This document shows positions 18,802 to 35,551 of a stretch of 36,274 nt of DNA, in pieces (positions within the stretch are counted from its first letter, which is position 1; the number at the start of each line of letters is the position of its first letter). This DNA comes from a virus. The DNA lies in IMG/VR virus record IMGVR_UViG_3300037247_000965, positions 1 to 36,274 of that record; one strand, 5' to 3'. A program made the translations under genes and the position numbers. A model generated the notes under the pieces. That model saw nothing but the letters and a program-made list of their open reading frames with translations, was not told the origin of the DNA and made no database searches.

Positions 18802-19316
18802 TGGCACCAACAGCAATCGCGTCCAAGTACGAGATTGTTTCTCCCTTTCCAGAGGAGTGCTTCCCGGCTTTTTGGAGTTGGATGGCAGAATTCAGAGAGC
18901 AGATGGTGGACGACTTTAGCCCGCAAACCTTTCAAGAATTGGTAGCGAAGGCACGACAGGACCAAGCGGCTGGGGGCAAGAGTTACGCCATTATGCAGAA
19001 TGGAGTTGTAGTTGGTTGTGTGTGGGGAGAGCATGTGGGCGACCGAGTATATGCTGGCCATCTGGTATTTGACCGCGATTCTTTGAAGTCAGCGGAGAAA
19101 CTGGAAGCCACCAAGATAACCTTACAGCGGTTTTTCTCTGAGGGAGCGAGAAAGATTCGCTGGATGGCCCTAAGTGACAATCGCGCTTACCGAATCTTCC
19201 TTCGGCGCTTGGGGGCCACGTTCGAAGGTGAGTTGAAGCGTGAAACGCGACGGCAGGGCAAAGAGTGCGACGTGGTTCTGTTTGCTTCGTTTCCTGCTGA
19301 GGAGCAGTCAACATGA
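18801..19316 (+). CDS. GNAT-type acetyltransferase, P22 gp14-like (DUF2824)
   Basis: 171 residues, matching the length of P22 gp14 (about 172), a protein of the DUF2824/GNAT class encoded in the same place. Visible are a GNAT-like beta stretch AIMQNGVVVGCVWGE (72-86), VYAGHLVFDRD, and a helix with NRAYRIFLRRLGATFEGELK (about 130-149), the typical N-x-x-A-x-x-x-x-x-x-x-G-F pattern of the C-terminal half. Its role in the virion is unclear. Confidence 0.8.
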   Translation: MAPTAIASKYEIVSPFPEECFPAFWSWMAEFREQMVDDFSPQTFQELVAKARQDQAAGGKSYAIMQNGVVVGCVWGEHVGDRVYAGHLVFDRDSLKSAEKLEATKITLQRFFSEGARKIRWMALSDNRAYRIFLRRLGATFEGELKRETRRQGKECDVVLFASFPAEEQST

Positions 19317-20314
19317 AGAACCGCGCAATGTTTTTGCTGTGGCCGATTGCCTTTCTGCTCTCTCGAATCTTTCCTAGCGCCCCCGAAGATGTGGGCTTGG
19401 CTGTGATCGGAACTGCGCTTGCTATCGGGCTAGGAGTAGCTTCGGCGGCTGGTTCGGTTGCCAGTGGTGTTTTGGCTGCTAAAGGTGCTGGCAAACAAGC
19501 CCGAGCAGCGGAACGCGCCACAGAAGTCGGTGTTGCGGAAGAACGCAGGCAATTTGACATCACCCAACAGAATCTCGCCCCCTGGCTAGGGGCAGGCACG
19601 GCAGCAGTTCAGCGCCTACAGTTTTTGCTGGGCTTGTCAGGCCAACCGACAGGGCAGCCCGCAGTCGGAGGGTTCCCTGGGGGTTTCGATTCTGCCGACC
19701 TGCGGGACGGGGACCGCTTTGGGAGATTGAGCCGTTTCGCGGATGAAGATGGGTTTGACTTTGACCCTACCCGTTTTCGGAGCGCGGCGGCACCCGGCGG
19801 CGGCCCAGAGGAAACCGACCCCGAGTTTGGTTCGTTGATGCAGGACTTCGGTTTGGAAGATTTTGAAACCGAGCCAGGATATGAGTTTCGTTTGGCAGAA
19901 GGGGCGAAAGCATTAGAGCGTTCAGCGGCGGCGCGCGGTCAGTCGTTTTCTGGCGGAACACTAAAAGCCTTGACGCGCTACAGTCAGGGGGTTGCTTCGG
20001 ATGAATTTGGCAGAGCCTACGGGCGCTTCCAAGAGAATCGTATGACTCGCTACAACTTCCTGGCGGGCTTGTCGGGCACAGGGCAGGCCACCGGCGTTCA
20101 ACTCGGAGACATAGGCGCGAGAACAGCGAGTGACATTGCGGGAATCCAAATCGGAGGAATCACATCGGCGGCAGCGGCCAGGGCTTCGGGTTACTCTGCT
20201 CTAGGGCAAAGCATCGGACAGGGAGTGAACACTAGCTTGAATTGGCTGGCGCTTAGCCGGTTGGCGCAGCGGAAACCCGGCCCAGAGGATGTCAGGGAAT
20301 TTTTCATGGGTTAA
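19313..20314 (+). CDS. DNA ejection protein, gp7 position
   Basis: 333 residues. The hydrophobic, glycine/alanine-rich N-terminus (VIGTALAIGLGVASAAGSVA region, about 31-50) could insert in membrane. Then come FDITQQNLAPWLGAGTAA (about 82-99) and FGLEDFETEPGYEFRLAEG. GAKALERSAAARGQSFSGGT and LKALTRYSQGVASDEFGRAY complete a pattern I recognise in P22-type and other phage internal virion or DNA-transfer proteins. P22 gp7 is about 229 residues. It would leave the virion with the DNA and help cross the cell envelope. Confidence 0.8.
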   Translation: MKNRAMFLLWPIAFLLSRIFPSAPEDVGLAVIGTALAIGLGVASAAGSVASGVLAAKGAGKQARAAERATEVGVAEERRQFDITQQNLAPWLGAGTAAVQRLQFLLGLSGQPTGQPAVGGFPGGFDSADLRDGDRFGRLSRFADEDGFDFDPTRFRSAAAPGGGPEETDPEFGSLMQDFGLEDFETEPGYEFRLAEGAKALERSAAARGQSFSGGTLKALTRYSQGVASDEFGRAYGRFQENRMTRYNFLAGLSGTGQATGVQLGDIGARTASDIAGIQIGGITSAAAARASGYSALGQSIGQGVNTSLNWLALSRLAQRKPGPEDVREFFMG

Positions 20315-20324
20315 GGAGGCAGTA

Positions 20325-21398
20325 ATGGGAGCATTCTTTCGCACAGACCCTTCTATCACGGCGCGGGGAATCCCTCGTCCCTTTGACCCCATCCAAGCCT
20401 TTTCCCGTATCGCCAACCTGCGTCGCTTGCAACAGCGCGGCCAGATCAACCAGCAAACACTAGAGGATATGGAAAGGGAAAGAGCGAGGATGCAAGCGAT
20501 TCGGGGTGCCGTGGGAGCAGGGGGCACCAATGCTGACATTCTTAGGCGACTTCAACAGGATGCTCCTCTCGCGGGCCTCGCGTATCGAGAGAAGTTTGCA
20601 GCGGAGCAAAGGGCCGCAGCAGGCGAGCAGAGAACGGCACAGAAAGACCAGCTTGAACGCTCCAAGGCTACCTACAAGCTGATTGGACAACTGGCAGGCC
20701 CGCTTAAAGTCCTAGAGGAGTCCGAGGCCGACCTTGAAACCATGCAGGTAGCCTATGCCGATTCGCTCGCAAAATTGGCTGCCGCAGGAATTGACGTTAG
20801 CAAACTCCCCCAGGAGTACAAGCTTGGGATGGCTCAGCAGGCCATCCTGGAAGCGGTAGATGTGACCAAGCAGATTGACCAAGCCCTGCGAGCAGAGGAA
20901 GCCGCAGAGAGAAAGGCGGCAAGAGAGAAGAAACTTCCTGGCGTTGATGTTCCTTTTCCCGCAGATGTAGAAGCTCAGAAAAAGCGGGTGAGAGCGGCGG
21001 GGAGAGAGCCAGATCGGGCTACTCGGGTGCAAGCGGCGATTGCGCGAAAGAACAACGACCTACTTGACTTACAGGAAAAGTATGATTGGCGCGAAGATGA
21101 AGAAGTGTTTTTCAACGCCAGCACTCTTCAAGCCCTAACCCGTGAACAGATGCGGCAACGCAAACAACAAATCCAAAATGCCTTTGAAGAAGAATTGAAA
21201 GCACTCGGCCAGCAGGTAGAACACTTTGAATATCCACTTGAGTGGAATCCCGTGCAGCCCGCTACTCAGCCCGCCGAGCCAGCAAAACAGCGTCTCGCCA
21301 AAAGAGCAGATGTTGAACGCTTTGCCGTCGCGCAGGGTTTAACATACGAACAAGCGGCGCAGAAACTCAAGGCGGGCGGGTGGACAATCGTTGAGTAA
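20325..21398 (+). CDS. DNA ejection protein, gp20 position
   Basis: 357 residues starting after AAGGAGG at ATG 20325 (an upstream in-frame ATG was rejected because it lies in the preceding gene). The central region is almost all helix and coiled coil, rich in Gln, Arg, Glu and Ala (IANLRRLQQRGQINQQTLED, about 27-46). P22 gp20 is an alanine/glutamine-rich helical ejection protein of about 471 residues in the same slot. Assignment rests mainly on position and composition. Its stop overlaps the TTG start of the next gene. Confidence 0.75.
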   Translation: MGAFFRTDPSITARGIPRPFDPIQAFSRIANLRRLQQRGQINQQTLEDMERERARMQAIRGAVGAGGTNADILRRLQQDAPLAGLAYREKFAAEQRAAAGEQRTAQKDQLERSKATYKLIGQLAGPLKVLEESEADLETMQVAYADSLAKLAAAGIDVSKLPQEYKLGMAQQAILEAVDVTKQIDQALRAEEAAERKAAREKKLPGVDVPFPADVEAQKKRVRAAGREPDRATRVQAAIARKNNDLLDLQEKYDWREDEEVFFNASTLQALTREQMRQRKQQIQNAFEEELKALGQQVEHFEYPLEWNPVQPATQPAEPAKQRLAKRADVERFAVAQGLTYEQAAQKLKAGGWTIVE

Positions 21399-24300
21399 CG
21401 GCAAGGACATCTCACAAGACTTTGAGCAATTCCTACAAGGGGATGCTTTCGGCCAAAAGTTTCAGGCTTGGCTACTGAGCCAACCAGAGCCGACTGCGAC
21501 CCCAGCATTTCGACCTCTTGGGCCAGTGGGGAGAGCTTACGCACTTGCGCCGACTCCCGAAGAAGCACCCGCACTACAGGAAGCTGGCCGCGCCTTTCTT
21601 GAGACACCCCTACTTCCTTTGACCAAATTGCTTCCCGAAGGGCCACCAACTGCTACCGTAACTCTGCCTCGCCGTCCTAGCCGTTTCGGTCCGCCTGTGG
21701 CACTACCAGGGCAAGGAGTTCGCGCTGACGAAACAGTGGACTTTCCTATTGGGGGCGTAGCGCGTGGCGCAGTTGAGTTTGCCGAAAGTCTGACAACCCC
21801 CGCCAACATCGCACTAATCGCAAGCATTGGTTTGACCGCAGGTGCGTTCCCCATAGTGACCAGGCTCATCTCGGCTGGCTTCTCGATTGACTTGATCCGT
21901 GGCGCAGTGCAGCAGTACCCCGAACTCCGTGAGGCCCTGAACGCAGGCGACGAGCAGGCCGTAGCACAGGTGGCAACCAGGATGGGGCTGACGGGCCTAT
22001 TAGGTGCTCTTGCTGGCCGTCACGCTATCCGTGGCAGGGCTGCTCCAGCGGAGATATCCAGGGTACGGCCAGCCGTGGAACGTGCGCCAGAGGCCCGCCC
22101 AGCGCCTCTCACGAGGGCTTTGCCTCCCCCAAAGCCGGTTTTAGCCCGGGAAGCCGCAGCGCCCAAAGTTGTCCTAGACGAGTTCGGGGATACGATTGAA
22201 CGTGGCGGACGAGTTGTAGATGCACTCGGGAGGAGTGGGAAAGTTCGATCTGTAGGTGCCTTGGTACAAGACTTAGAGACGGGCAAGGCGGTGTTTCGGG
22301 AAGATATGCTGAAAGTAGATTTCGGCAAAGGCCCTGAACCTGTGTCCATTGGCGACGTGACGGTGAAGCGACACGGGCGGCCGAAAGCATTGGCAGGGAT
22401 TGGTGGAAGGCGTGCGCGCCTCTTTGGTGAAACAGAGCAAGCCGAGATGGAGCGGTTTGCCCGTGAGGGTGGATTTCCAGAGGAAGCACTGCTTGGTGCT
22501 AGACCCAAACTGCCTGCTCCGGCAGCAACCGCCGCCGCCGAGGTCATCAGCAGACGCCAAATCTTGCAGCAGATTTCACAGAAGCTAGAGCTTCCTATCC
22601 GCGTCGGGCGTTTTCGCGGCAAAGCTCTAGGTATCTACAAAGTCACACCCGAGGTTGTTCGCAGCAAGATTGCTCAAGACCTGCCTGTAATCGCACATGA
22701 AGTCGGCCATCACATCAACAAAGTCTTGTGGGGAACCTACGAGCGCAAAACGGGTGTGCGTCTGAATTGGAAACCCCTAACCCCATTCCGCGCCGAGTTG
22801 AAACCTATTGCCACCAAACCCCGAGGGGGAAAGTCTTACTTGCCAGAGGGCTTTGCCGAGTTTGTGCGAATGTATTTGACCGATCCAGCCGAAGCGGGAG
22901 CGAAAGCACCGCGATTCCTTGAATTCTTTGAGAAGGAACTTGGGCGAGTACCGGAATTGAGGGAATTGCTGACCGAAACGCGAAACAATATCCGACGCTG
23001 GATCGAGCAGCCCGCCGTTGCCAGGGTAGTCAGCCAAATCAGTAAGCAGCAACCTAAGCGCCTGGGCTTCGGCCTGGAAAGGCTCTACACAGACGCCAAG
23101 GATGCCCTGCGACCCATTCAGCGGGTTGTAGAGGAGATGAACAAAGGCAAAGACCCGCTGGCAACAGAGAAGAACGCCTACGAGGTGGCGCGGCTGTTTG
23201 CTGGCTGGTGGGGCAAAGCAGATCATTTCTTGCGCCGTGGTACTTTCGATGCCGATGCCTTGTATAAAGAAGGCCGCTTACGGGTCACAGGGAAACCGCT
23301 GAATGAAATCTTGAAGCCCGTAGAGGGTAGCCTAGACAATTTCCGGGCTTACATCAGTTCCCTTCGCGCCATAGAAAAAGGCAAACAGGGGAAGGAAACA
23401 GGAATTTCCCTGTCTGACGCCAAGGAGGTTGCCCGCGAACTGGAAAGCCCTGAATACCGGCAGGCGTTTGAGGAACTGAAAGCCTACCAAAACGCCGTCC
23501 TAGATTATCTCCACAAGTCAGACCCGAAAAGCCTCACAGCAGAAGCGTTGCGAGTGATTCGCGCGGCGAATCAAGACTACGTTCCCTTCTACCGGGTTTT
23601 CGAGGAAAGCCCCGTAGGAGCGGGCGCTGCGGCAGGCAGGGGATTGGCTGATTTGTGGTCGCCCATTAAGCGCATGAAAGGAAGCGGGCGCGAGATCATT
23701 GATCCGCTAGAAAGCATTGTAAAGAATACCTACACATTCTTGAACCTAGCTGAGCGCAAGCGGATTATGCGTACCTTGATTGAACAAGCGGAAAGCACAG
23801 AAGGGGCAGGGCAATGGATTGAGCGCGTTCAAGCGAAACTTCGGCCCACACAGTTTGAAATCAACGAAATCAGGAAGCAGCTTCAAGCTGCTGGCGCAGA
23901 ACTTTCACAGGCAGAACTGGACGCCACGATAAGCGTATTCCGCCCGTTCACGGCGGCCTCCCCCAAGGAAGGGATTATTGTCGTAGGCAAAGACCTGTAT
24001 CAAGTTCAGCCAGAGCTTTACCGAGCTTTGAAGGGCTTGGACTATGAATCGAGCAATGTGTTGATTCGCCTCCTGAGTATGCCTGCCCGGGCCTTGCGTT
24101 TGGGCGCGACAGCACTAGGGCCGGAATTTGTTATCCGCAACCCGCTCCGAGACACCATGACCGCTTTCATGCAGTCACGCTATGGATTCAAACCAGGGGT
24201 GGACACGGTACGCGGTCTTTTCCATGCGTTGAAGCGCGACGACCTCTATTGGGAATGGAAAGCCGCAGGCGGTGAGCACGCCGCAATGGTCAGCCTGGAC

Positions 24301-25602
24301 CGAACCACGCTGCAATCAAACCTAACCGATCTGATGAGAACAAATCTGGGCTGGGCGGTTCACCACCCCATCGAAGCGGCGCGGATTGTCAGCGAAATGA
24401 GTGAAGCCGCAAGTCGTTTGGGCGAATACCAACTTGCGCGGAAAGCGGGCGCTACCCCGCTGCGAGCGGGCTTTGCAGCGCGTGAGGTTACGCTGGACTT
24501 TGCTCGCATGGGGGCAAAGGGTAAGGCTGTCAATTCCATCGTAGCTTTCTTCAACGCTGCCCTAGAGGGAACCGACAAGTTTGTGAGGGTTCACTTGCAG
24601 AACCCAAAAGGAACAGTTGCGAAGGCGGTTGCTGGCATTACTTTGCCAAGTATTTTGCTCTACGCCATCAATTCCAGAGATACAAGCGAATGGCGGGGAA
24701 CACCCCGCAAAGAAATCTTCCGACAACTTCCTCAATGGGTAAAAGACTTTTTCTGGCTGGTGCCTTCGCAATATACCCCACTGGCTGAGGCAACGCCCTA
24801 TATCCCACTCCCAAAACCGTTTTTGTGGGGGATGGTTTATGCAAGTGTGCCGGAAAGAGTAATGGAGTGGGTGGAAACCCGTGACCCGGAATCTTTTGAC
24901 GAGTTGATTCAGAACGTAGGGACTGCGGCCCTGCCAGGGTTTATTCCTACGGCAGCGATTCCACTCATTGAGATTATTTCCAACCGCAGTATGTTCACCG
25001 GGAAACGCCTAGAGCCGCGCTACATGGAGAGGATTCACCCACAATTTCGGGCCCATCCCTACACTTCGGAGTTTTCAAAGATAGCGGCGAAGGTAATTTG
25101 GCGGGTAAGTCTAGGGAAAGCGTTGCGGGCATCGAATGTTGAAATTTCTCCGATCAAGCTAGACCAAGCGATTTTCAGCATTACCGGCGGCTTGGGTCGA
25201 GCGGTGCTGCGCGGGCTGGACAAAGTAATCGGGAAGGCGGAAGCGCCAACAGGGAAGATGTCGGAGATTCCGATTCTGCGAGCCTTCGCCGTCCGGTGGC
25301 CGACAGGACAAGCCCAAAGCGTGCGACGGTTTTATGGCCGCTTGGGTGAACTGGAGGAAAAGTTTTCCACCAAAAGATTTGAGGACAAGTATCCTGGCAG
25401 AGCGCCCACGGCACAACGATTGACTACAAAGGAAGCTATGGAACTGAGGCGACTGCGCGGGTACAGTCGGCGTATGCAAAGTATCTATCAACAAATGCGT
25501 TCCGCAGGGGTTTCTAAGCTGGCAGGAAAGGAAAAACAGCGCCAAATTGACCGCTATATGTTGCAGATTCTCGAACTCGCTGGAAAGGCGATAGGCCGCT
25601 GA
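21391..25602 (+). CDS. large polyvalent ejection protein with zincin motif (gp16 position)
   Basis: 1403 residues from TTG 21391, overlapping the previous stop by 8 nt. A hydrophobic helical segment lies around residues 130-165 (ANIALIASIGLTAGAFPIVT). HEVGHH at 436-441 with downstream GFAEFVRMY (E490) forms a gluzincin-like metallopeptidase motif. AFFNAALEGTDKFVR near 1052 is a pattern I associate with large polyvalent proteins of phages (LPD38-like). The basic C-terminus ends in a coiled coil. P22 gp16, an ejection protein of about 609 residues, occupies this slot, so this version is more than twice as long. It probably enters the cell with the DNA. The peptidase may cut cell-wall or host proteins. 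Confidence 0.8.
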   Translation: MSNGKDISQDFEQFLQGDAFGQKFQAWLLSQPEPTATPAFRPLGPVGRAYALAPTPEEAPALQEAGRAFLETPLLPLTKLLPEGPPTATVTLPRRPSRFGPPVALPGQGVRADETVDFPIGGVARGAVEFAESLTTPANIALIASIGLTAGAFPIVTRLISAGFSIDLIRGAVQQYPELREALNAGDEQAVAQVATRMGLTGLLGALAGRHAIRGRAAPAEISRVRPAVERAPEARPAPLTRALPPPKPVLAREAAAPKVVLDEFGDTIERGGRVVDALGRSGKVRSVGALVQDLETGKAVFREDMLKVDFGKGPEPVSIGDVTVKRHGRPKALAGIGGRRARLFGETEQAEMERFAREGGFPEEALLGARPKLPAPAATAAAEVISRRQILQQISQKLELPIRVGRFRGKALGIYKVTPEVVRSKIAQDLPVIAHEVGHHINKVLWGTYERKTGVRLNWKPLTPFRAELKPIATKPRGGKSYLPEGFAEFVRMYLTDPAEAGAKAPRFLEFFEKELGRVPELRELLTETRNNIRRWIEQPAVARVVSQISKQQPKRLGFGLERLYTDAKDALRPIQRVVEEMNKGKDPLATEKNAYEVARLFAGWWGKADHFLRRGTFDADALYKEGRLRVTGKPLNEILKPVEGSLDNFRAYISSLRAIEKGKQGKETGISLSDAKEVARELESPEYRQAFEELKAYQNAVLDYLHKSDPKSLTAEALRVIRAANQDYVPFYRVFEESPVGAGAAAGRGLADLWSPIKRMKGSGREIIDPLESIVKNTYTFLNLAERKRIMRTLIEQAESTEGAGQWIERVQAKLRPTQFEINEIRKQLQAAGAELSQAELDATISVFRPFTAASPKEGIIVVGKDLYQVQPELYRALKGLDYESSNVLIRLLSMPARALRLGATALGPEFVIRNPLRDTMTAFMQSRYGFKPGVDTVRGLFHALKRDDLYWEWKAAGGEHAAMVSLDRTTLQSNLTDLMRTNLGWAVHHPIEAARIVSEMSEAASRLGEYQLARKAGATPLRAGFAAREVTLDFARMGAKGKAVNSIVAFFNAALEGTDKFVRVHLQNPKGTVAKAVAGITLPSILLYAINSRDTSEWRGTPRKEIFRQLPQWVKDFFWLVPSQYTPLAEATPYIPLPKPFLWGMVYASVPERVMEWVETRDPESFDELIQNVGTAALPGFIPTAAIPLIEIISNRSMFTGKRLEPRYMERIHPQFRAHPYTSEFSKIAAKVIWRVSLGKALRASNVEISPIKLDQAIFSITGGLGRAVLRGLDKVIGKAEAPTGKMSEIPILRAFAVRWPTGQAQSVRRFYGRLGELEEKFSTKRFEDKYPGRAPTAQRLTTKEAMELRRLRGYSRRMQSIYQQMRSAGVSKLAGKEKQRQIDRYMLQILELAGKAIGR

Positions 25603-25868: not shown

Positions 25869-26807
25869 ATGGCTAAGATTATTGCGAACCCTAAGTTCCG
25901 AGCGGTCGATCCAAACACTGGTGCGGCATTAGTAGGTGGAAAGTTGTATTCATATCAGGCCGGGACCAGCAATCCCAAAGCGACCTACACCAGCCAAGCG
26001 GGTTCAGTTGCCAATCCCAACCCTACGGAACTTGATGGCAACGGAGAAGCGAACATCTGGCTGGGAACAGGGGGGTACAAGTTCAAACTCACCGACGCCT
26101 ACGATGTCGAACTGTGGACGATTGACAACATTCAAATTGCCGATGTAGGCGCGTTTTCCTCTCTGACGGTCACAGGCGCAACCACACTTGCAGCGGTTAC
26201 GGCAAGCGGCCAAATCACTAGCACAGTTACGACTGGCACCGCCCCCCTTGTCATTTCCTCGACCACGAAGGTCGTTAATCTTAACGCCGACAAGTTGGGT
26301 GGAAAGAATTGGGCCGCACCCGATCCAATTGGAGCGACCACACCAGAGACGGGGAAATTCACCAGTCTGGAAGCCAGTGGCGATATAACTCCGAAGGCTA
26401 ACGTCAGCCAAGAGAGCGCCAACGCAGGGAAGTGGATTCGCGGGCAAATCTCCGAGGAAATCACGCTTTCTACTGGCGGGACCACAACAGATTCGGCAGG
26501 CAATCTCCTGCCCGCCAACTCTGTCATTGAAGGAGTGGTTGCGCGGGTCACGGAGGAAATTACAACGGCGACCGATTGGAAGTTAGGCGATGCCAGCCAA
26601 GCAGCACGCTTTCTAGCCGCCAGCAGCAACTTGGCCGCAGGCGACACTGAGGTAGGACTGGCGCACCGCCAGCCTAGTGTAGCGGATGCTAGTGGGCCAG
26701 TGCAGAGTGCAGCGGCCAAACTCAGAATCACCACTACCGGAACACCGGGGGCAGGGAAGATCAGGATCACAGTTTTCTATTCTCAGTTTGTAGCGCCGAC
26801 TTCATAA
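25869..26807 (+). CDS. tailspike/tail fibre protein with head-binding domain
   Basis: 312 residues. The first 90 (FRAVDPNTGAALVGGKLYSY, then GSVANPNPTELDGNGEANIW and DNIQIAD) match the tail-binding domain of P22-type tailspikes and related fibre proteins. The middle is threonine/alanine-rich with repeat-like strands (TVTGATTLAAVTASGQITST), and the C-terminus is beta-structured. It probably anchors to the tail and carries part of the receptor-binding assembly, with the following genes supplying more parts. There is no strong ribosome binding site. Confidence 0.75.
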   Translation: MAKIIANPKFRAVDPNTGAALVGGKLYSYQAGTSNPKATYTSQAGSVANPNPTELDGNGEANIWLGTGGYKFKLTDAYDVELWTIDNIQIADVGAFSSLTVTGATTLAAVTASGQITSTVTTGTAPLVISSTTKVVNLNADKLGGKNWAAPDPIGATTPETGKFTSLEASGDITPKANVSQESANAGKWIRGQISEEITLSTGGTTTDSAGNLLPANSVIEGVVARVTEEITTATDWKLGDASQAARFLAASSNLAAGDTEVGLAHRQPSVADASGPVQSAAAKLRITTTGTPGAGKIRITVFYSQFVAPTS

Positions 26808-26866: not shown

Positions 26867-29011
26867 ATGCGTTCCCTGCAAAGATTCTACTTCTGGCTAG
26901 TCAGGCAGATGGTGGCGGCATTGCTTTGCTACCCTGCGGCACTGTTCGCCACCATCCTAGTTCTGTTGTTCCCAGTTTCCGCCCATCCTCAGGGCGGAAT
27001 CTTGAACGATTCTGTCTTGCGGGCCGATGGCAGGCCAGCCATAGGCGCGACAGTACGAGTCTGCACTGAGGCCGCTAGTGGCACGCCTTGCTCGCCCACC
27101 GCTTCCATTTTCAGCGATAAGGCTCTCACAATTGGAATTGGCCCTACTCTCGCAGTGGATGCTGCTGGTGGCTACACCTACTACGCTTCCCCAGGCTTCT
27201 ACAAAGAGCAACTGTGCTTAGGCGGCACCTGCGTCACCCGCACCGTACTAATGCCGATTGATGCAGGTTTGGTTTCAGTCGGAGAGTGGAATGGTGCGCC
27301 GGTTGCCGGTAGTGCCAAGTATCCCACCATTCAGGAAGCGGTTGACGCTATCGGTTCGACAGGTGGAAGGGTCTATGTCCTGCCGGGTGCCTACGATGAG
27401 CGGATCACTTCAATCAAAGAGGGCATCCATCTGATTTGTCTCGGCAGCGCCAGCGTGTTCGGCGGCAGCGTAAATCCCTGCCGCATAGTCGGAAGCAGTA
27501 GCGGTGTCTTGCTTACGCTCGGAGACGGAGCCACAACCTACAACAACGGTTGGATTATTGAGGGTATTAGCTTTGAGGACACTAGCGGCACTGGGGCTCT
27601 GAATGGTGGTGTGAGGCTCCGCTGGTTTAATCGCACCACTTTTAGGAAGTGTGCTTGGAAGGATTTTGAGGGCACGGGCGACTACGGGGTGTGGTTGGAT
27701 GGCACAGGTGATGCCGTTGCACACACGACCTTCTATGAACCCTATGCTGAGAACAACTACGACTGGCTCAAAGGGACGGTCGGTACTGATACACAGATGT
27801 TTGGTGGTGAAGTTCATGGTCTGAACGCGGGCGTGACCTTTTCAAATGGCGGGTTGAGTGTTTTCGGAACCGGATTCAAGATTCCCGTAGGAGGGGCAGG
27901 GATTATTTGGAACTCCCCTAGTCCTCTGCGTGGATTCATAAAATGTGAAGGCACTCCCCCTGGAGCCCTCCGAGCAGGCGAATGTGTCCGTTTCCAGAGC
28001 GGCGCAACCGGAGGTTCGCAATTGCTGTTCACAACAGTGTGGCTCGATGAGGGCGCAGTTATTGATGCCAGCGCCCAGTTAATCCAGGTGATTGGCAACT
28101 GCATAGGCATAGATGACGACAACTGCGTGAACAATTCGGGGGATGCAACTTTCAAGCTCACCCGTGACCAGATTGTTCTTGAAACCTTGCAATCTGCCAT
28201 CGCTGGTCAAGCGGGGTTCAAGACAGTCACAGAGCCCGATGGCATCTCCGTTCCCGCCCTTCTGGTCAATCTCAGTCGTGGGATTCTCGTCAAGGACGAC
28301 CCGACCATCAGCGGTGGGCTGTGGCTGTCGGGTGATGCTGCCTCACAGGGAACGGTTGGTGCGGGTGCGTATGGCGACCTGGCCTCAAACCCGATTGCAA
28401 CCGACGCCGAGTCATCGAGCATCCTGTTCTGGAACAATGAGATTCGCTTTTATGCGGACACTGGCCTCACCCCTGGCAACTCGTTCAACCGGACTTTACG
28501 TGGGGAAATTACTCCTACTTCGGCGTTTTTCACCCCACTTGAAGGCTCGTCGTCCAATACCGCTCACTGGATTTTCAAGTTGGTGGACTTCAGCGACATG
28601 ACCGCTGGGGCCACTGCCGACACTTTCACTCTCTGGACGCTGCCCACAAACACCATGATTCACGATGTTGTTGGCATCGTCGTAACAGGCTGGTCGGGTG
28701 GAACAATCTCAGCGGCAGTCTGCTCGGTCGGAACTCAGGGTGGTTCGGACAATGATTTGACACTGGACGACAATTTCTTTGCCACCGCGACGGTGTACGA
28801 ACTCCACGACGCTACCGCGAACGGGGGCAAGGGCACGCTGCTTTATGACGCCACCGACAAATTTGCCCCCTATATGTTCGTCGCCGGTGGTGTGGTGGAA
28901 ATCCAGTGTGACTTGACTGGCGATAACCACGCCAATGCCACCGCAGGGCAGGCGAGGATTTACATTCTCGTCTCTCGACCCCTAGAAAACACCACCAGAG
29001 AGGCGAACTAG
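26867..29011 (+). CDS. secreted beta-helix tailspike-like protein with signal sequence
   Basis: 714 residues. The start has a basic region, a long hydrophobic core (ALLCYPAALFATILVLLFP, about 18-36) and a small-residue stretch VSAHPQ, i.e. a Sec-type signal peptide or anchor. Next comes a beta domain with VCTEAASGTPC and YASPGF, then YPTIQEAVDAIGSTGGRVYV (about 150-169), the classic entry to a right-handed beta-helix as in pectate-lyase-like tailspikes. The cysteines suggest an oxidising compartment. The beta-helix could bind or cut polysaccharide, as tailspikes do; no catalytic residues can be named. Such signals are rare on phage virion proteins. Confidence 0.75.
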   Translation: MRSLQRFYFWLVRQMVAALLCYPAALFATILVLLFPVSAHPQGGILNDSVLRADGRPAIGATVRVCTEAASGTPCSPTASIFSDKALTIGIGPTLAVDAAGGYTYYASPGFYKEQLCLGGTCVTRTVLMPIDAGLVSVGEWNGAPVAGSAKYPTIQEAVDAIGSTGGRVYVLPGAYDERITSIKEGIHLICLGSASVFGGSVNPCRIVGSSSGVLLTLGDGATTYNNGWIIEGISFEDTSGTGALNGGVRLRWFNRTTFRKCAWKDFEGTGDYGVWLDGTGDAVAHTTFYEPYAENNYDWLKGTVGTDTQMFGGEVHGLNAGVTFSNGGLSVFGTGFKIPVGGAGIIWNSPSPLRGFIKCEGTPPGALRAGECVRFQSGATGGSQLLFTTVWLDEGAVIDASAQLIQVIGNCIGIDDDNCVNNSGDATFKLTRDQIVLETLQSAIAGQAGFKTVTEPDGISVPALLVNLSRGILVKDDPTISGGLWLSGDAASQGTVGAGAYGDLASNPIATDAESSSILFWNNEIRFYADTGLTPGNSFNRTLRGEITPTSAFFTPLEGSSSNTAHWIFKLVDFSDMTAGATADTFTLWTLPTNTMIHDVVGIVVTGWSGGTISAAVCSVGTQGGSDNDLTLDDNFFATATVYELHDATANGGKGTLLYDATDKFAPYMFVAGGVVEIQCDLTGDNHANATAGQARIYILVSRPLENTTREAN

Positions 29012-30901
29012 ATGAAAAAACTACTCATCCTGCTCTTGCTGCTCGCCCCCTCTCTTGCTTGGGGGCAGGTTGTTATCCCTGGCACTGGCGGTGCTACGCC
29101 TGCCGTTGTAGCGGGCAACCGGACTACTGTAATCCCCGCTCTTTGCACCGGAACCGACAAGGTAACTGGCATTGCGACAGGTGGAATCGTCGTATGCAAT
29201 ACCGACGTAACTGGCACAACCTCTCCGCTCACAACCAAGGGCGACCTGTGGGGATTCAGCACGGCAGATGGCCGGGTAGCAGTAGGCACAAACGACCAAT
29301 GCCTAGTAGCTGATTCGACCGCTGCGTTCGGCATTAAGTGGGGTTCGTGTGCGGCAGGGGGAACCGGGATTACTTCACTCGGTGGGGAGACTGGCTCGAC
29401 GCAGACTTTCTCCAAGGTGGACGACACCAATGTTACCCTGACAATCGCCTCTGCTACCGACGACCACAAATTCACCTTGGGATGGACTGGAACCCTGGCT
29501 GATTCCCGCTTGGCCTCGAACTATTCCGGGGTAGGGAGCTGCACCAACCAGTTTGTCCGTGCCACGGTGGACGACGCCGCGCCCACCTGCGCGAGCATTG
29601 CCGATGCCGACCTGCCTTCAACCAATGCGCTCGATACAGAGTTGCACCCGCAGGTGCATGTCCTGGTCAGCGCCGACCACACCGCCAGCGGCCTGACCAT
29701 CGGCTACGTCGTGCGCGCCACCAGCACCACCGCTTTCGCTTGGCAGCAACTCGGCTTCTCTGACCTGGGCGGCAGCGCCACCGCAGGGCAGGTGCCCAAC
29801 CTAGAGAGCTTGAACGGGACGCTGGACATAGCTTCCGGCGGTACAGGTCAGACAACAGCCAATCCAGCCTTCAACGCTTTGTCTCCCGTGACTACCGAAG
29901 GCGACCTGATCTATCGCAACGCGACTGTGAACGCACGACTGGCGCGAGGAGCCAATGGGGAATGCTTGACTGCAAGCGCCAGCACGATTCTGTGGGGTTC
30001 TTGCGGTGGTGCCGGGGATGGCGTCGGCTACGACGAGGTTTTGGAGGAAGCCTCTGGCCTCACCAAGCGCGCGCAAATCAATTTCATCGGCGTAGATGTG
30101 ACCGCCGTAGATAACGGTGGAGCTACCAGGACGGATGTGACGATCATTCCGGTTGCGGAAGCCTACGATGCGACCGGCTGGAACGCGGACACCGGAGCAG
30201 CCTCAAAAGACAACGTACGGGACAAGATCGAATCTCTGGACTTCTCTGACCTCGCAGGAACAGTTGCGGCTGGACAGTATGCTGCCGCCAGCATTGACGG
30301 AGACGACATCGCCAGTGGTCTAGCCGGAACTGGGCTGACTCTGACCGCCGCCTCACCTGATACGCTCGACTGTGACGCGGCCAGCACAACGGCTGTTGGT
30401 TGCCCGGAAATGGCAATCGCCAGCGAGGTTGATACCGGCACGAGCACCATCCTAGCCGTGACCCCCGACGCCTTGGCAGGCTCAGAGTTTGGACAGGTTG
30501 AAGTCCAGATGGTCGCCTTTGACTTCACGACCGCCGTGGCGACCGGCGACGGTAAGTTCTACTTCCATATCGCCACAGGGTCCAAGTTAATCGGGATGAA
30601 TCTGATTGATGCCATCGCTGCGGTCATTACGGTCAGTTCGTCGGGCTTGCCCACCGTGGACATAGCTCGGTGTGCCCCTGTAGCTACCGGAAACCCCTGC
30701 TCCGGCACCGTAGCCGACGTTCTCTCGACCAATTTGACCATTGATGCGAACGAAGACAGTTCCGACACTGCGACTACTGCTGCTGTTATAGCCGGGGCCA
30801 GCGACGATGTGATTGTGGATCAAACTTGGCGGATAGATGTGGACGTTGCTGGTACAGGAACACAAGGTCTAATCGTTACGCTGATATTCCAACTGCCATG
30901 A
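29012..30901 (+). CDS. tail fibre-like protein with Sec signal peptide, 629 aa
   Basis: Begins MKKLLILLLLLAPSLAWGQ, a textbook signal peptide with a likely cut after AWG (about residue 18). The body has fibre-shaft motifs: ASGGTGQTTANPAFNALSP (about 273-291) and two copies of a module around SPLTTKGDLWGF ... WGSC and SPVTTEGDLIY ... WGSC, each ending in a Cys. These are typical of phage tail fibre shafts. A C-terminal beta domain (about 490-629) may be the tip. It is the second gene of the signal-bearing series, starting right after the previous stop. Confidence 0.75.
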   Translation: MKKLLILLLLLAPSLAWGQVVIPGTGGATPAVVAGNRTTVIPALCTGTDKVTGIATGGIVVCNTDVTGTTSPLTTKGDLWGFSTADGRVAVGTNDQCLVADSTAAFGIKWGSCAAGGTGITSLGGETGSTQTFSKVDDTNVTLTIASATDDHKFTLGWTGTLADSRLASNYSGVGSCTNQFVRATVDDAAPTCASIADADLPSTNALDTELHPQVHVLVSADHTASGLTIGYVVRATSTTAFAWQQLGFSDLGGSATAGQVPNLESLNGTLDIASGGTGQTTANPAFNALSPVTTEGDLIYRNATVNARLARGANGECLTASASTILWGSCGGAGDGVGYDEVLEEASGLTKRAQINFIGVDVTAVDNGGATRTDVTIIPVAEAYDATGWNADTGAASKDNVRDKIESLDFSDLAGTVAAGQYAAASIDGDDIASGLAGTGLTLTAASPDTLDCDAASTTAVGCPEMAIASEVDTGTSTILAVTPDALAGSEFGQVEVQMVAFDFTTAVATGDGKFYFHIATGSKLIGMNLIDAIAAVITVSSSGLPTVDIARCAPVATGNPCSGTVADVLSTNLTIDANEDSSDTATTAAVIAGASDDVIVDQTWRIDVDVAGTGTQGLIVTLIFQLP

Positions 30902-31632
30902 GAATGAAAAACTCAATGAGAAGAATTGTTTTAATTTTGCTTACTTTATTCGTGTGTGTGACTCCAGCGCAAGCGACGATTACTTTTGTTCAACAAAATT
31001 CAGCCGCCGCCAATGGCTCCGCTGCAACTATCACCGTTGCGCTAACGGGTGTAGGGGCAGGCAATCTAATTGTTCTCTTTGCCTGCCATGAGACCGTACA
31101 GGACACGATTACTGCCAGCGATGGCACCACTTCACTAACGGGTCTAACTCGACACGACTTCGTTGGCGGTTCAGGGTCGGGGAGATTCCTTTATTTGCTT
31201 TCAGCCAACAGCGGAGACAAGACCTACACCGTAACTTTCGGGAGTGCAGCACAGTTCCGAAAGGTGTTTGTTTGGGAGTATAGCTATTCCGGCACAGCGG
31301 AATTCGACCAAGAGAACTCAAATGAATCGAATGGCGGGACTTCCTCGATCACATCCGGCAACATTACTACAACAGGAACAGATGAAGTTGTCTTGGCTGG
31401 TAACTGGGCCTACTCCGCATCCTTTCCAAGCGATGAACAAATAAATGGAGTAGCTGCCGATAACATTGACCATGACGGAAACGATGGGTCGAGTTGGGAC
31501 AGTATTGTTACCGCAACCTTTACCGGGCAAGCAACTGCCACTCGTGGCACAGCATCGTGGGCGTGTCTTATTGCTTCGTTTAAGGCAACCGGGGCTGCTG
31601 CCGTAGAGCGCCGAAAGGTGATTGTTTATTGA
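30898..31632 (+). CDS. secreted beta-domain protein, 244 aa
   Basis: ATG 30898 overlaps the previous stop (ATGA) and was preferred to an upstream in-frame start inside that gene. Residues 8-27 form a signal peptide (RRIVLILLTLFVCVTPAQA) with a cut expected after AQA. The mature part is beta-rich and low in charge (ATITVALTGVGAGNLIVLFA), with a long Asn/Ser/Thr-rich segment and a final SWACLIASFKATG strand, like a jelly-roll or surface-binding domain. No catalytic motif is seen. It belongs to the same export-marked run. Confidence 0.65.
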   Translation: MRMKNSMRRIVLILLTLFVCVTPAQATITFVQQNSAAANGSAATITVALTGVGAGNLIVLFACHETVQDTITASDGTTSLTGLTRHDFVGGSGSGRFLYLLSANSGDKTYTVTFGSAAQFRKVFVWEYSYSGTAEFDQENSNESNGGTSSITSGNITTTGTDEVVLAGNWAYSASFPSDEQINGVAADNIDHDGNDGSSWDSIVTATFTGQATATRGTASWACLIASFKATGAAAVERRKVIVY

Positions 31633-31648
31633 CTAAGGAGGAACTGAA

Positions 31649-32050
31649 ATGAAACGACGTTGGCTACTGATTGCTGCTGTGGTTGTTGGGGTCTTGGTGT
31701 TCGCCGTTTGGAGGGTGCGAGCTGCCATCGTGGATTTCACTTGGGACTACGACTACACAATTCACATCGCTTGTGTGGACGCCGCTGCGGTTGATTGCGT
31801 GGAGGGGTTTGAAGTCTTGGACGAGGGCGGGGCTACGCTACTGGTCGTTCCGAATCAAACACCTGTCCCGACAGGCGTTGTGGTCGATATTCCAGCCCAA
31901 CTCATCACGGGTCCGCCCTACGGCAACCGAACATTCGGCTTGATCGCTGTGGCGAGGACTAGCACCGGGGCTCGGATTGTGAGTGAGACGGTGAACTTTC
32001 CTACGGCTCTTATCCGCCCAGGGAAACCTACAAACCTGAGAGCGCAATAG
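31649..32050 (+). CDS. exported or membrane-anchored FN3-like protein, 133 aa
   Basis: Starts after AAGGAGG. A hydrophobic stretch (LLIAAVVVGVLVFAVW, about 6-21) follows two Arg residues and acts as signal anchor or signal peptide. The remaining 105 residues form one beta-sandwich-like domain (VDFTWDYDYTIHIAC, VDCVEGFEVLDEGGA, ending PGKPTNLRAQ), resembling a fibronectin type III repeat. A small adhesion or fibre-tip partner is plausible. Confidence 0.6.
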   Translation: MKRRWLLIAAVVVGVLVFAVWRVRAAIVDFTWDYDYTIHIACVDAAAVDCVEGFEVLDEGGATLLVVPNQTPVPTGVVVDIPAQLITGPPYGNRTFGLIAVARTSTGARIVSETVNFPTALIRPGKPTNLRAQ

Positions 32051-32335
32051 ATGATTGCTGACCACGTTCCGAGCGTACTGGATTACGGGCTGTACGGGCT
32101 ATTGGCCGTGGTGATGATCCGTGAACTCTTCTCGCTCATTCGCTTCGCTTTCAGCCATCGGAAGAACGGCAATCCTGGTAATCACGCTATGAATGCCTCG
32201 GAACTCCGGGGCCATTTAGAAGGATTAGGTGCAGACCTCCGGGCTATCCGAGATGGACAGATTGTGATTCAGACCAAGCAAGGGCAAATTCTGAGCGGAA
32301 TGAATACGCTGCTGGCAAGGAGGGATGGTGGCTAG
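32051..32335 (+). CDS. small membrane protein before the endolysin (holin candidate), 94 aa
   Basis: Starts immediately after the previous stop. Residues about 11-33 (LDYGLYGLLAVVMIRELFSL) form one transmembrane helix, followed by a polar linker and a charged helix (LRGHLEGLGADLRAIRDGQI). Its end overlaps the endolysin start by 11 nt, and the endolysin RBS (AAGGAGGG) lies within it. Position suggests a holin or a lysis accessory protein. One helix is fewer than most holins have, so the call is tentative. Confidence 0.5.
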   Translation: MIADHVPSVLDYGLYGLLAVVMIRELFSLIRFAFSHRKNGNPGNHAMNASELRGHLEGLGADLRAIRDGQIVIQTKQGQILSGMNTLLARRDGG

Positions 32336-32804
32336 GTTTGACCTCTCCATTGAGACAATCCTGAAACATGAGGGCGGCTATGTGAACGACAAGGACGACC
32401 CGGGCGGGGAGACAAATTTCGGTATCTCCAAGCGCCAGTATCCCAAACTCGACATTGCAAACCTAACGGTGGAGCAAGCCAAGTTGCTCTACCGGCAAGA
32501 CTACTGGAAGTACGACGAAATCATCAGTCAGCCCGTCGCTACCAAAGTGTTCGATATGGCGGTGAACATGGGGCACGGCAGGGCGCACCGGATACTACAA
32601 GAGGCGCTGCAAAACGTAGGCGAACCCGTCAGGATTGACGGAATCCTTGGACCGCAAACCACCAGGGCCGCAAACGGTTCTGAGTACGAGGAACTGCTAA
32701 AGGAGATTCGCATTCTAGTGGCTGTTACCTACGCGCAAATTGCGATTGCCCGACCTACGAGCAGGAAGTTTCTGCATAACTGGATGAGGAGGGCGGCGAG
32801 TTAA
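32325..32804 (+). CDS. endolysin, glycoside hydrolase family 108
   Basis: 159 residues. HEGGYVNDKDDPGGETNFGI (15-34) carries the family's catalytic Glu16 in the EGGY motif. FDMAVNMGHGRAHRILQEAL (about 73-92) and RIDGILGPQTTRA (about 103-115) form the rest of the domain, the latter like a PG_binding_3 segment. It cleaves the sugar backbone of peptidoglycan to release progeny. ATG 32325 sits directly on AAGGAGGG; GTG 32328 is an alternative start only one codon later. No signal peptide is seen, so a holin is needed. Confidence 0.88.
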   Translation: MVARFDLSIETILKHEGGYVNDKDDPGGETNFGISKRQYPKLDIANLTVEQAKLLYRQDYWKYDEIISQPVATKVFDMAVNMGHGRAHRILQEALQNVGEPVRIDGILGPQTTRAANGSEYEELLKEIRILVAVTYAQIAIARPTSRKFLHNWMRRAAS

Positions 32805-35115: not shown

Positions 35116-35270
35116 TGGACAGGCTTGAGTGGGTACTTTTGTGTGCGTTTCTCGCAGCCGTGAGTCTTGCGATTGGCATTCTGATTGGGGCTTTCAGAGC
35201 GCACAGAAAGATGATGGCGGAAGAGGAGAAGTTCACGCCCACGCACAGAAGGACGCGGGAGAAACCATGA
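35115..35270 (+). CDS. 51-aa single-span membrane protein
   Basis: ATG 35115 overlaps the previous TAA. Residues about 6-26 (VLLCAFLAAVSLAIGILIGA) form one transmembrane helix followed by a charged cytoplasmic tail (HRKMMAEEEKF). The next gene, which also encodes a single-span protein, overlaps it by 4 nt. The pair could be partners, for example spanin-like or holin/antiholin-like, but no lipobox or other signature is present. Confidence 0.55.
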   Translation: MDRLEWVLLCAFLAAVSLAIGILIGAFRAHRKMMAEEEKFTPTHRRTREKP

Positions 35271-35551
35271 GCAGAGAGCCACGCGAGAGGTTCATGTTCG
35301 GCTGCCTGCTAGTGGCCCTCATGGTCGGGATTGTAGCTGTGAAGTTTTGGGTTGTGTCGGTAGAGGAACGGTTGGCCGTGAACCTAGCAATCCACCAGAC
35401 GAGCGTAGGGACTGACCGGAGCCAAACCAACGTGCTCTACAACCACGAGAACCGCCTGCGGAGGGTCGAGTACAACGACATAGCCTTCCAGGACTACCAA
35501 AGGTTCTGCGAAGGATGGCCGACGCAGCAGCAGATTGCACAAGGGGAATAA
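35267..35551 (+). CDS. 94-aa single-span membrane protein
   Basis: ATG 35267 overlaps the preceding stop (ATGA). A basic start leads to a membrane helix (FMFGCLLVALMVGIVAVKFW, about 9-28) and a helical outer or inner domain with NHENRLRRVEYNDIAFQDYQ. The last residues (TQQQIAQGE) are encoded by an RBS-like repeated block that recurs 238 nt downstream. Together with the previous gene it forms a small membrane-protein pair. Function unknown. Confidence 0.55.
   Translation: MSREPRERFMFGCLLVALMVGIVAVKFWVVSVEERLAVNLAIHQTSVGTDRSQTNVLYNHENRLRRVEYNDIAFQDYQRFCEGWPTQQQIAQGE

Follow-up and report, generated by a model that had tools for sequence, protein, structure and literature searches.

In the textbook view, tailed phages assemble entirely in the cytoplasm, and the question raised by the locus described here is why a run of fibre-type genes within it should open with export signals. 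The window, that is the whole stretch of DNA analysed, is a 36,274-bp linear virus contig (IMG/VR record IMGVR_UViG_3300037247_000965) whose head and tail genes are P22-like (podovirus). They comprise a terminase, a portal protein (phrog_156), a scaffold, a coat protein (phrog_283) and the head closure protein Hc3 (phrog_578), together with a gp7-like ejection protein (phrog_598) and a large LPD38 protein (21391..25602, + strand) upstream of the fibre cluster. Judged by Hc3, the closest cultured relative is Rhodoferax phage P26218 (47% identity); a prophage-based host assignment, which returned a single match in a bacterial MAG, was discarded. The structural block ends with ORF1 and then ORF2 to ORF5, after which come a small protein with one predicted transmembrane segment that opens the lysis cassette (32051..32335) and a GH108 endolysin (32325..32804; Glyco_hydro_108 and PG_binding_3) homologous to P26218 gp22, all on the + strand. 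Near the contig end, a 94-aa ORF (35267-35551) has a predicted N-terminal transmembrane segment or signal and is possibly a spanin.

ORF1 (25869..26807), a 312-aa tail fibre without a signal, serves as the reference neighbour. ORF2 (26867..29011, 714 aa) combines a 39-aa Sec signal with a long n-region (26867..26983), a cysteine-bearing N-terminal domain, a putative beta-helix and a C-terminal fibre module (residues 552-714, 28520..29008) that includes Cys619 and Cys681. ORF3 (29012..30901, 629 aa) has a signal of 16-18 aa (29012..29065), TKGDL-type fibre repeats with local cysteine pairs and a C-terminal module of its own (residues 497-629, 30500..30898). ORF4 (30898..31632, 244 aa) consists of a 26-aa signal and a beta-sandwich-like domain, and ORF5 (31649..32050, 133 aa) of a signal or N-terminal anchor and a small domain with Cys42 and Cys50. 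A fibre-type character is supported for ORF1 to ORF3 and, by way of its relatives, for ORF4; for ORF5, which has no family match, it is a suspicion.

Export signals in the tail locus

Signals were scored with a home-made Sec predictor built on a basic n-region, an uncharged h-region (8 or more residues) and small residues at -3/-1. ORF2, ORF3, ORF4 and ORF5 score 7.1, 5.9, 7.5 and 8.3, respectively, and in 1000 shuffles of each protein the observed score was never reached (0/1000 each, 0/4000 overall). All four show the n-region, h-region and -3/-1 residues of a Sec-type I signal, ORF5 alternatively reading as an anchor. The four consecutive genes with export signals described in the first-pass annotation were in this way confirmed, with every reading frame found in its place. 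Among the other head and tail genes of the window, only the gp7-like ejection protein (19313-20314) was flagged; it has a long hydrophobic N-terminus and scores 6.2. A test on E. coli K-12 (39 genes) recovered both genes recognised as exported (yaaX and yaaI); the further genes flagged at the threshold of >=4.5 were three for polytopic membrane proteins and one for a soluble protein. Five P22-like genomes yielded 3/185 genes scoring 5 or more, P26218 gp24 among them. Signal peptides were found in 0/73 control fibre ORFs, a set gathered solely by a common GTNGQVLxAD-type motif, and a search of viral_contigs for a Cys variant of the GTNGQxLTAD motif gave no matches.

The likely cleavage sites lie between PVSA and HPQGG in ORF2, after the long signal of 39 aa, between SLA and WGQ or between AWG and Q in ORF3, between PAQA and TIT in ORF4, and between RVRA and AIV in ORF5, which could alternatively have an uncleaved anchor. 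Lipoprotein sorting was rejected, since around the likely cleavage site none of the four window proteins has a lipobox (Cys at +1). Glutamine occupies the likely +1 position in many signals (ORF3 of the window, L004, L099, L106, L108 and L110 gp24), which recalls the Q-rule of Bacteroidetes (PMC10653852); the strong Shine-Dalgarno sequences of the signal genes argue against a Bacteroidetes-type host.

ORF4 may start at 30898, in an ATGA overlap with ORF3, at 30904 or at 30916, and its signal is intact from any of these positions. A dual translation start by which the signal would be skipped was rejected: just past the signal, ORF2, ORF3 and the signal-bearing fibre of the contig G002 (see below) offer no internal start preceded by a Shine-Dalgarno sequence. 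In G005, a Shine-Dalgarno sequence and an ATG are positioned exactly at the signal. The first reading of the locus had allowed for relatives with internal starts that bypass the signal; the relatives that have no signal turned out to differ in their N-terminal architecture rather than in the choice of start.

Shared modules and their cysteines

L004 (G001), a close relative of the window with colinear structural genes, keeps ORF1 without a signal and carries ORF2 and ORF3 with different signals. The mature starts are almost identical between the two (QGGILNDSVLRADG and QVVIPGTGG), and the ORF2 counterpart places a canonical 20-aa signal ahead of the same mature start, QGGILNDSV. The mature parts of ORF2 and ORF3 contain 13 and 12 cysteines, respectively, whereas their signal-less neighbour ORF1 contains 0.

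The C-terminal 163 residues of ORF2 are present in 12 IMG/VR loci. The cysteine pair of this module (AAVC...EIQC) occurs in 6/6 signal-bearing copies, the window included, versus 0/6 signal-less copies (p=0.002); in the module tree, signal status changes twice, each change being matched by a change in the cysteines, and with just two events a formal phylogenetic test of the link is not possible. At about 75% identity, the cysteine positions are taken by Ala/Gly and Met in the signal-less copies, and one further copy, of uncertain start, is likewise without the cysteines. The association suggests that the signal-bearing modules may indeed pass into an oxidising compartment.

In ORF3, the 12 cysteines make up six local pairs, an arrangement with a chance probability of about 2e-4. 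Its C-terminal module is found on both signal-bearing and signal-less phage proteins and shows the same trend as the ORF2 module, less cleanly: two or more cysteines are present in 6/15 signal-bearing versus 1/36 signal-less copies, 9/15 signal-bearing copies are without them, and across the at least 10 changes of signal status in the module tree the cysteines mostly fail to track. Among the fibre-like proteins in these loci, the median cysteine content is 1.07% with a signal versus 0.45% without one (p=0.002). Export with disulphide formation would be the economical reading of a signal combined with cysteine pairs.

ORF4 is a distant relative of a signal-bearing G002 protein that shares, from just past its signal, 38% identity with a G005 protein without a signal; this latter homologue matches a minor tail protein family. 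A shared C-terminal tail, RRKVIVY in ORF4 (31606-31632) and ARRPVVVY in the G002 relative (L239:9586-9612), is possibly a docking or sorting element. For ORF5, a family search gave no match, a scan returned no relatives of either ORF5 or the LPD38 protein, and the small domain is FN3-like as judged by eye alone. A relative at L244:4602-5048 (- strand) has a signal, a cysteine-bearing FN3-looking domain and a C-terminal transmembrane anchor; it is 44% identical to ORF5 over its first 36 residues, so the two seem to share the signal itself.

Head-binding domains and recurrence in other phages

Residues ~10-90 of ORF1 form a tailspike head-binding domain of the P22/Pam1/Pan3 type (PDB 7eeq, E=5e-5 alone and 6e-8 as a profile). 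The best Foldseek matches of the ORF1 structure model are Pan3, Pam1 and P22 (1LKT), and the N-terminus of P26218 gp26 is 47% identical to ORF1. When the window was searched with the A3 head-binding profile, ORF1 was the one match. The N-terminal domain of ORF2 bears a weak likeness in pattern to that of ORF1, an hhalign comparison of the two established no link (probability 1.3%), and a structure model of ORF2 was set aside (pLDDT 39); in ORF3 to ORF5, no recognised virion-attachment domain was found. Because the window already encodes a signal-less head-binding fibre, ORF1, the products of ORF2 to ORF5 need not be virion parts here.

The signal-bearing fibre of G002, whose gene directly follows the LPD38 homologue, consists of a signal, a head-binding domain, a beta-helix (PF13229) and the cysteine-bearing ORF2 module, in that order. 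Its head-binding domain is 32% identical to that of ORF1, matches the Pan3 tail spike in the PDB (E=7e-4) and, as a profile, the Pam1 and Pan3 tailspikes; it is the one head-binding domain found on the contig and lies behind the signal. A pectate-lyase-type tailspike domain stands behind a signal in G005, and G004 encodes a pectate-lyase-type tailspike behind a signal as well as another three signal genes side by side. From residue 24, at about the cleavage site, one of these G004 signal proteins is 36% identical to S-CREM2 gp176, which has no signal and was detected in S-CREM2 virions by mass spectrometry (20 unique peptides, 39.4% coverage; PMC10665884). In several families, the same virion-type body occurs both with and without a signal. 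In the papers searched, virion proteomics turned up for none of the signal-bearing homologues.

The tailspikes of P22, Pam1 and Pan3 are not known to have a signal, and their assembly takes place in the cytoplasm. They share their N-terminal head-binding domain with ORF1 and the G002 fibre, and their beta-helix bodies with relatives of ORF2; what sets the G002 fibre, ORF2 and its relatives apart from them is the combination of a Sec signal with cysteine pairs. The cyanophage family of S-CREM2 gp176 (phrog_8198), despite its identity to the G004 signal protein, differs in the same respect, the cyanophage proteins examined being without a signal. P26218 gp24 is a small signal-bearing protein with two cysteines in its mature part, and its gene lies in the same slot as in the window, between those of gp26, a head-binding fibre, and gp22, the endolysin; however, it has no sequence homology to ORF2 to ORF5. 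A 333-aa signal-bearing protein encoded right after the major capsid protein, in G002 (L239:5532-6533, - strand) and at L002:14426-15427, shows, in its C-terminal half, 49% identity to a protein of virus Rctr197k that has no signal, and may be an exported head decoration protein.

The first-pass annotation had also pointed to related phages as the place to look for the same architecture, and it does recur there, with runs of at least three signal genes on several contigs. Such runs are found in podo-, sipho- and lambda-J-type loci, and since the neighbours in two of the loci include the N-terminus of a T7-type fibre and a tail protein of the lambda J type, the pattern crosses phage types. In our sample of loci, which was gathered via window-related modules and to which the figure applies rather than to all phages, 34/56 signal genes have a signal-bearing neighbour on the same strand, versus about 11% expected. 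L010:11398-20690 (IMGVR_UViG_3300033143_005101) holds three consecutive signal genes, among which are a pair of near-identical copies and a gene for a 2535-aa protein. No cultured phage with signal-bearing homologues of the window fibres was found, and searches of open-licence papers yielded no description of signal-bearing tail fibres. Signal-bearing fibre genes are a real and recurrent feature that has apparently gone undescribed.

A possible periplasmic route for fibres and its alternatives

Best supported are the signals themselves, the fibre homology, the exchange of modules between proteins with and without a signal, the link between signal and cysteines in the ORF2 module and the head-binding domain behind the signal of G002. 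Our results suggest that signal-bearing fibres mature in the envelope and then reach the virion or act on other cells after lysis. Tentatively, we favour the view that ORF2 to ORF5 are virion-type adhesins that travel via Sec, become disulphide-bonded in the periplasm and dock after lysis. We infer that the proteins are exported and cleaved in this host, that they form disulphides, when this happens and that they dock after lysis, and propose the following hypothetical sequence, in which (i) ORF2 to ORF5 would be made late, together with the structural genes; (ii) their products would cross the inner membrane via the host Sec system, and the signal would be removed; (iii) in the periplasm, the exported fibres would fold and form disulphides, while the ORF5 product might remain anchored; (iv) they would be held there during the assembly of capsid and tail in the cytoplasm; (v) the adjoining lysis cassette would free virions and exported fibres together; (vi) the freed fibres would, most probably, attach themselves to the virion tail and become receptor- or polysaccharide-binding parts. 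Docking would explain both the head-binding domain retained in G002 and the detection of the homologue gp176 in virions, and on these two grounds attachment after lysis is favoured among the functions first suggested for the locus, with receptor masking and a secreted depolymerase kept as candidates of lower probability. Outside the tailed phages, G3p (pIII) of filamentous phages is likewise a Sec-exported virion adhesin (PMC8310372), but it belongs to another type of virus, which assembles at the membrane and has no tail or lysis.

The coexistence of the exported proteins with ORF1, and their many different bodies, would also be explained by a decoy, receptor-masking or enzyme role. We consider it rather unlikely that they are fibre-derived soluble or cell-associated adhesins that block the receptors or glycans of the producing cell, of neighbouring cells or of debris, and so prevent superinfection or wasteful re-adsorption after lysis. 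They do share their C-terminal modules with signal-less fibres, the virion fibre is already supplied by ORF1, and most signal-bearing copies have no recognisable head-binding domain, G002 alone having one. Lambda Lom provides a precedent, as a signal-bearing product of a gene within the tail region that acts in the host envelope (PMC12309495); Lom, however, is an outer-membrane beta-barrel and not a fibre. A head-binding domain behind the G002 signal would serve no purpose in such a role, as many as four different exported proteins in one genome are more than a lone receptor blocker would call for, and delivery to the periplasm does not by itself reach the outer face.

It is improbable that the proteins are secreted depolymerases or lectins, with the beta-helices as enzymes, that loosen the extracellular polysaccharide of the host for the spread of progeny. 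ORF2 itself gives a sub-threshold Pectinesterase match, its relatives have beta-helices of the pectate-lyase/epimerase type (PF13229, PF12708), and the ORF2 family profile has epimerase-like matches; yet no enzyme domain was found in ORF3, ORF4 or ORF5, and a beta-helix is equally the standard body of virion tailspikes. Uncleaved inner-membrane anchors that face the periplasm and aid lysis or membrane-proximal assembly are quite improbable. Such a role would fit the position of the genes next to the lysis cassette, the strong hydrophobic segment of ORF5, which could stay uncleaved, and an ORF5 relative in G004 with a signal and a C-terminal transmembrane segment, but ORF3, ORF4 and the ORF2 relatives have short h-regions and clean AxA/AxG motifs, often with glutamine at +1, and no lysis role is known for an anchored fibre body. 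Chance hydrophobic starts or misannotated start codons are very improbable, for although the predictor is home-made and gives about one soluble false positive per 39 E. coli genes, they are contradicted by the shuffles (0/4000), by the signal and mature start conserved in L004, by Shine-Dalgarno sequences placed exactly at the signal, by the lack of a usable start further downstream in ORF2, ORF3 or the G002 fibre, and by the association of cysteines with the signal.

The docking of exported adhesins after lysis, as we favour it for the window, might extend to a second route of assembly, widespread among tailed phages, in which late adhesins are exported via Sec, mature with disulphides in the periplasm apart from the capsid and are added to virions only post-lysis; we regard this generalisation as possible but doubtful. 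If true, it would mean a split assembly line, with adhesins that are able to use disulphides and to be swapped between co-lysing phages. The alternative meaning would be that of secreted decoys built from fibres. Either reading would alter the annotation of receptor-binding proteins and the prediction of host range from genomes.
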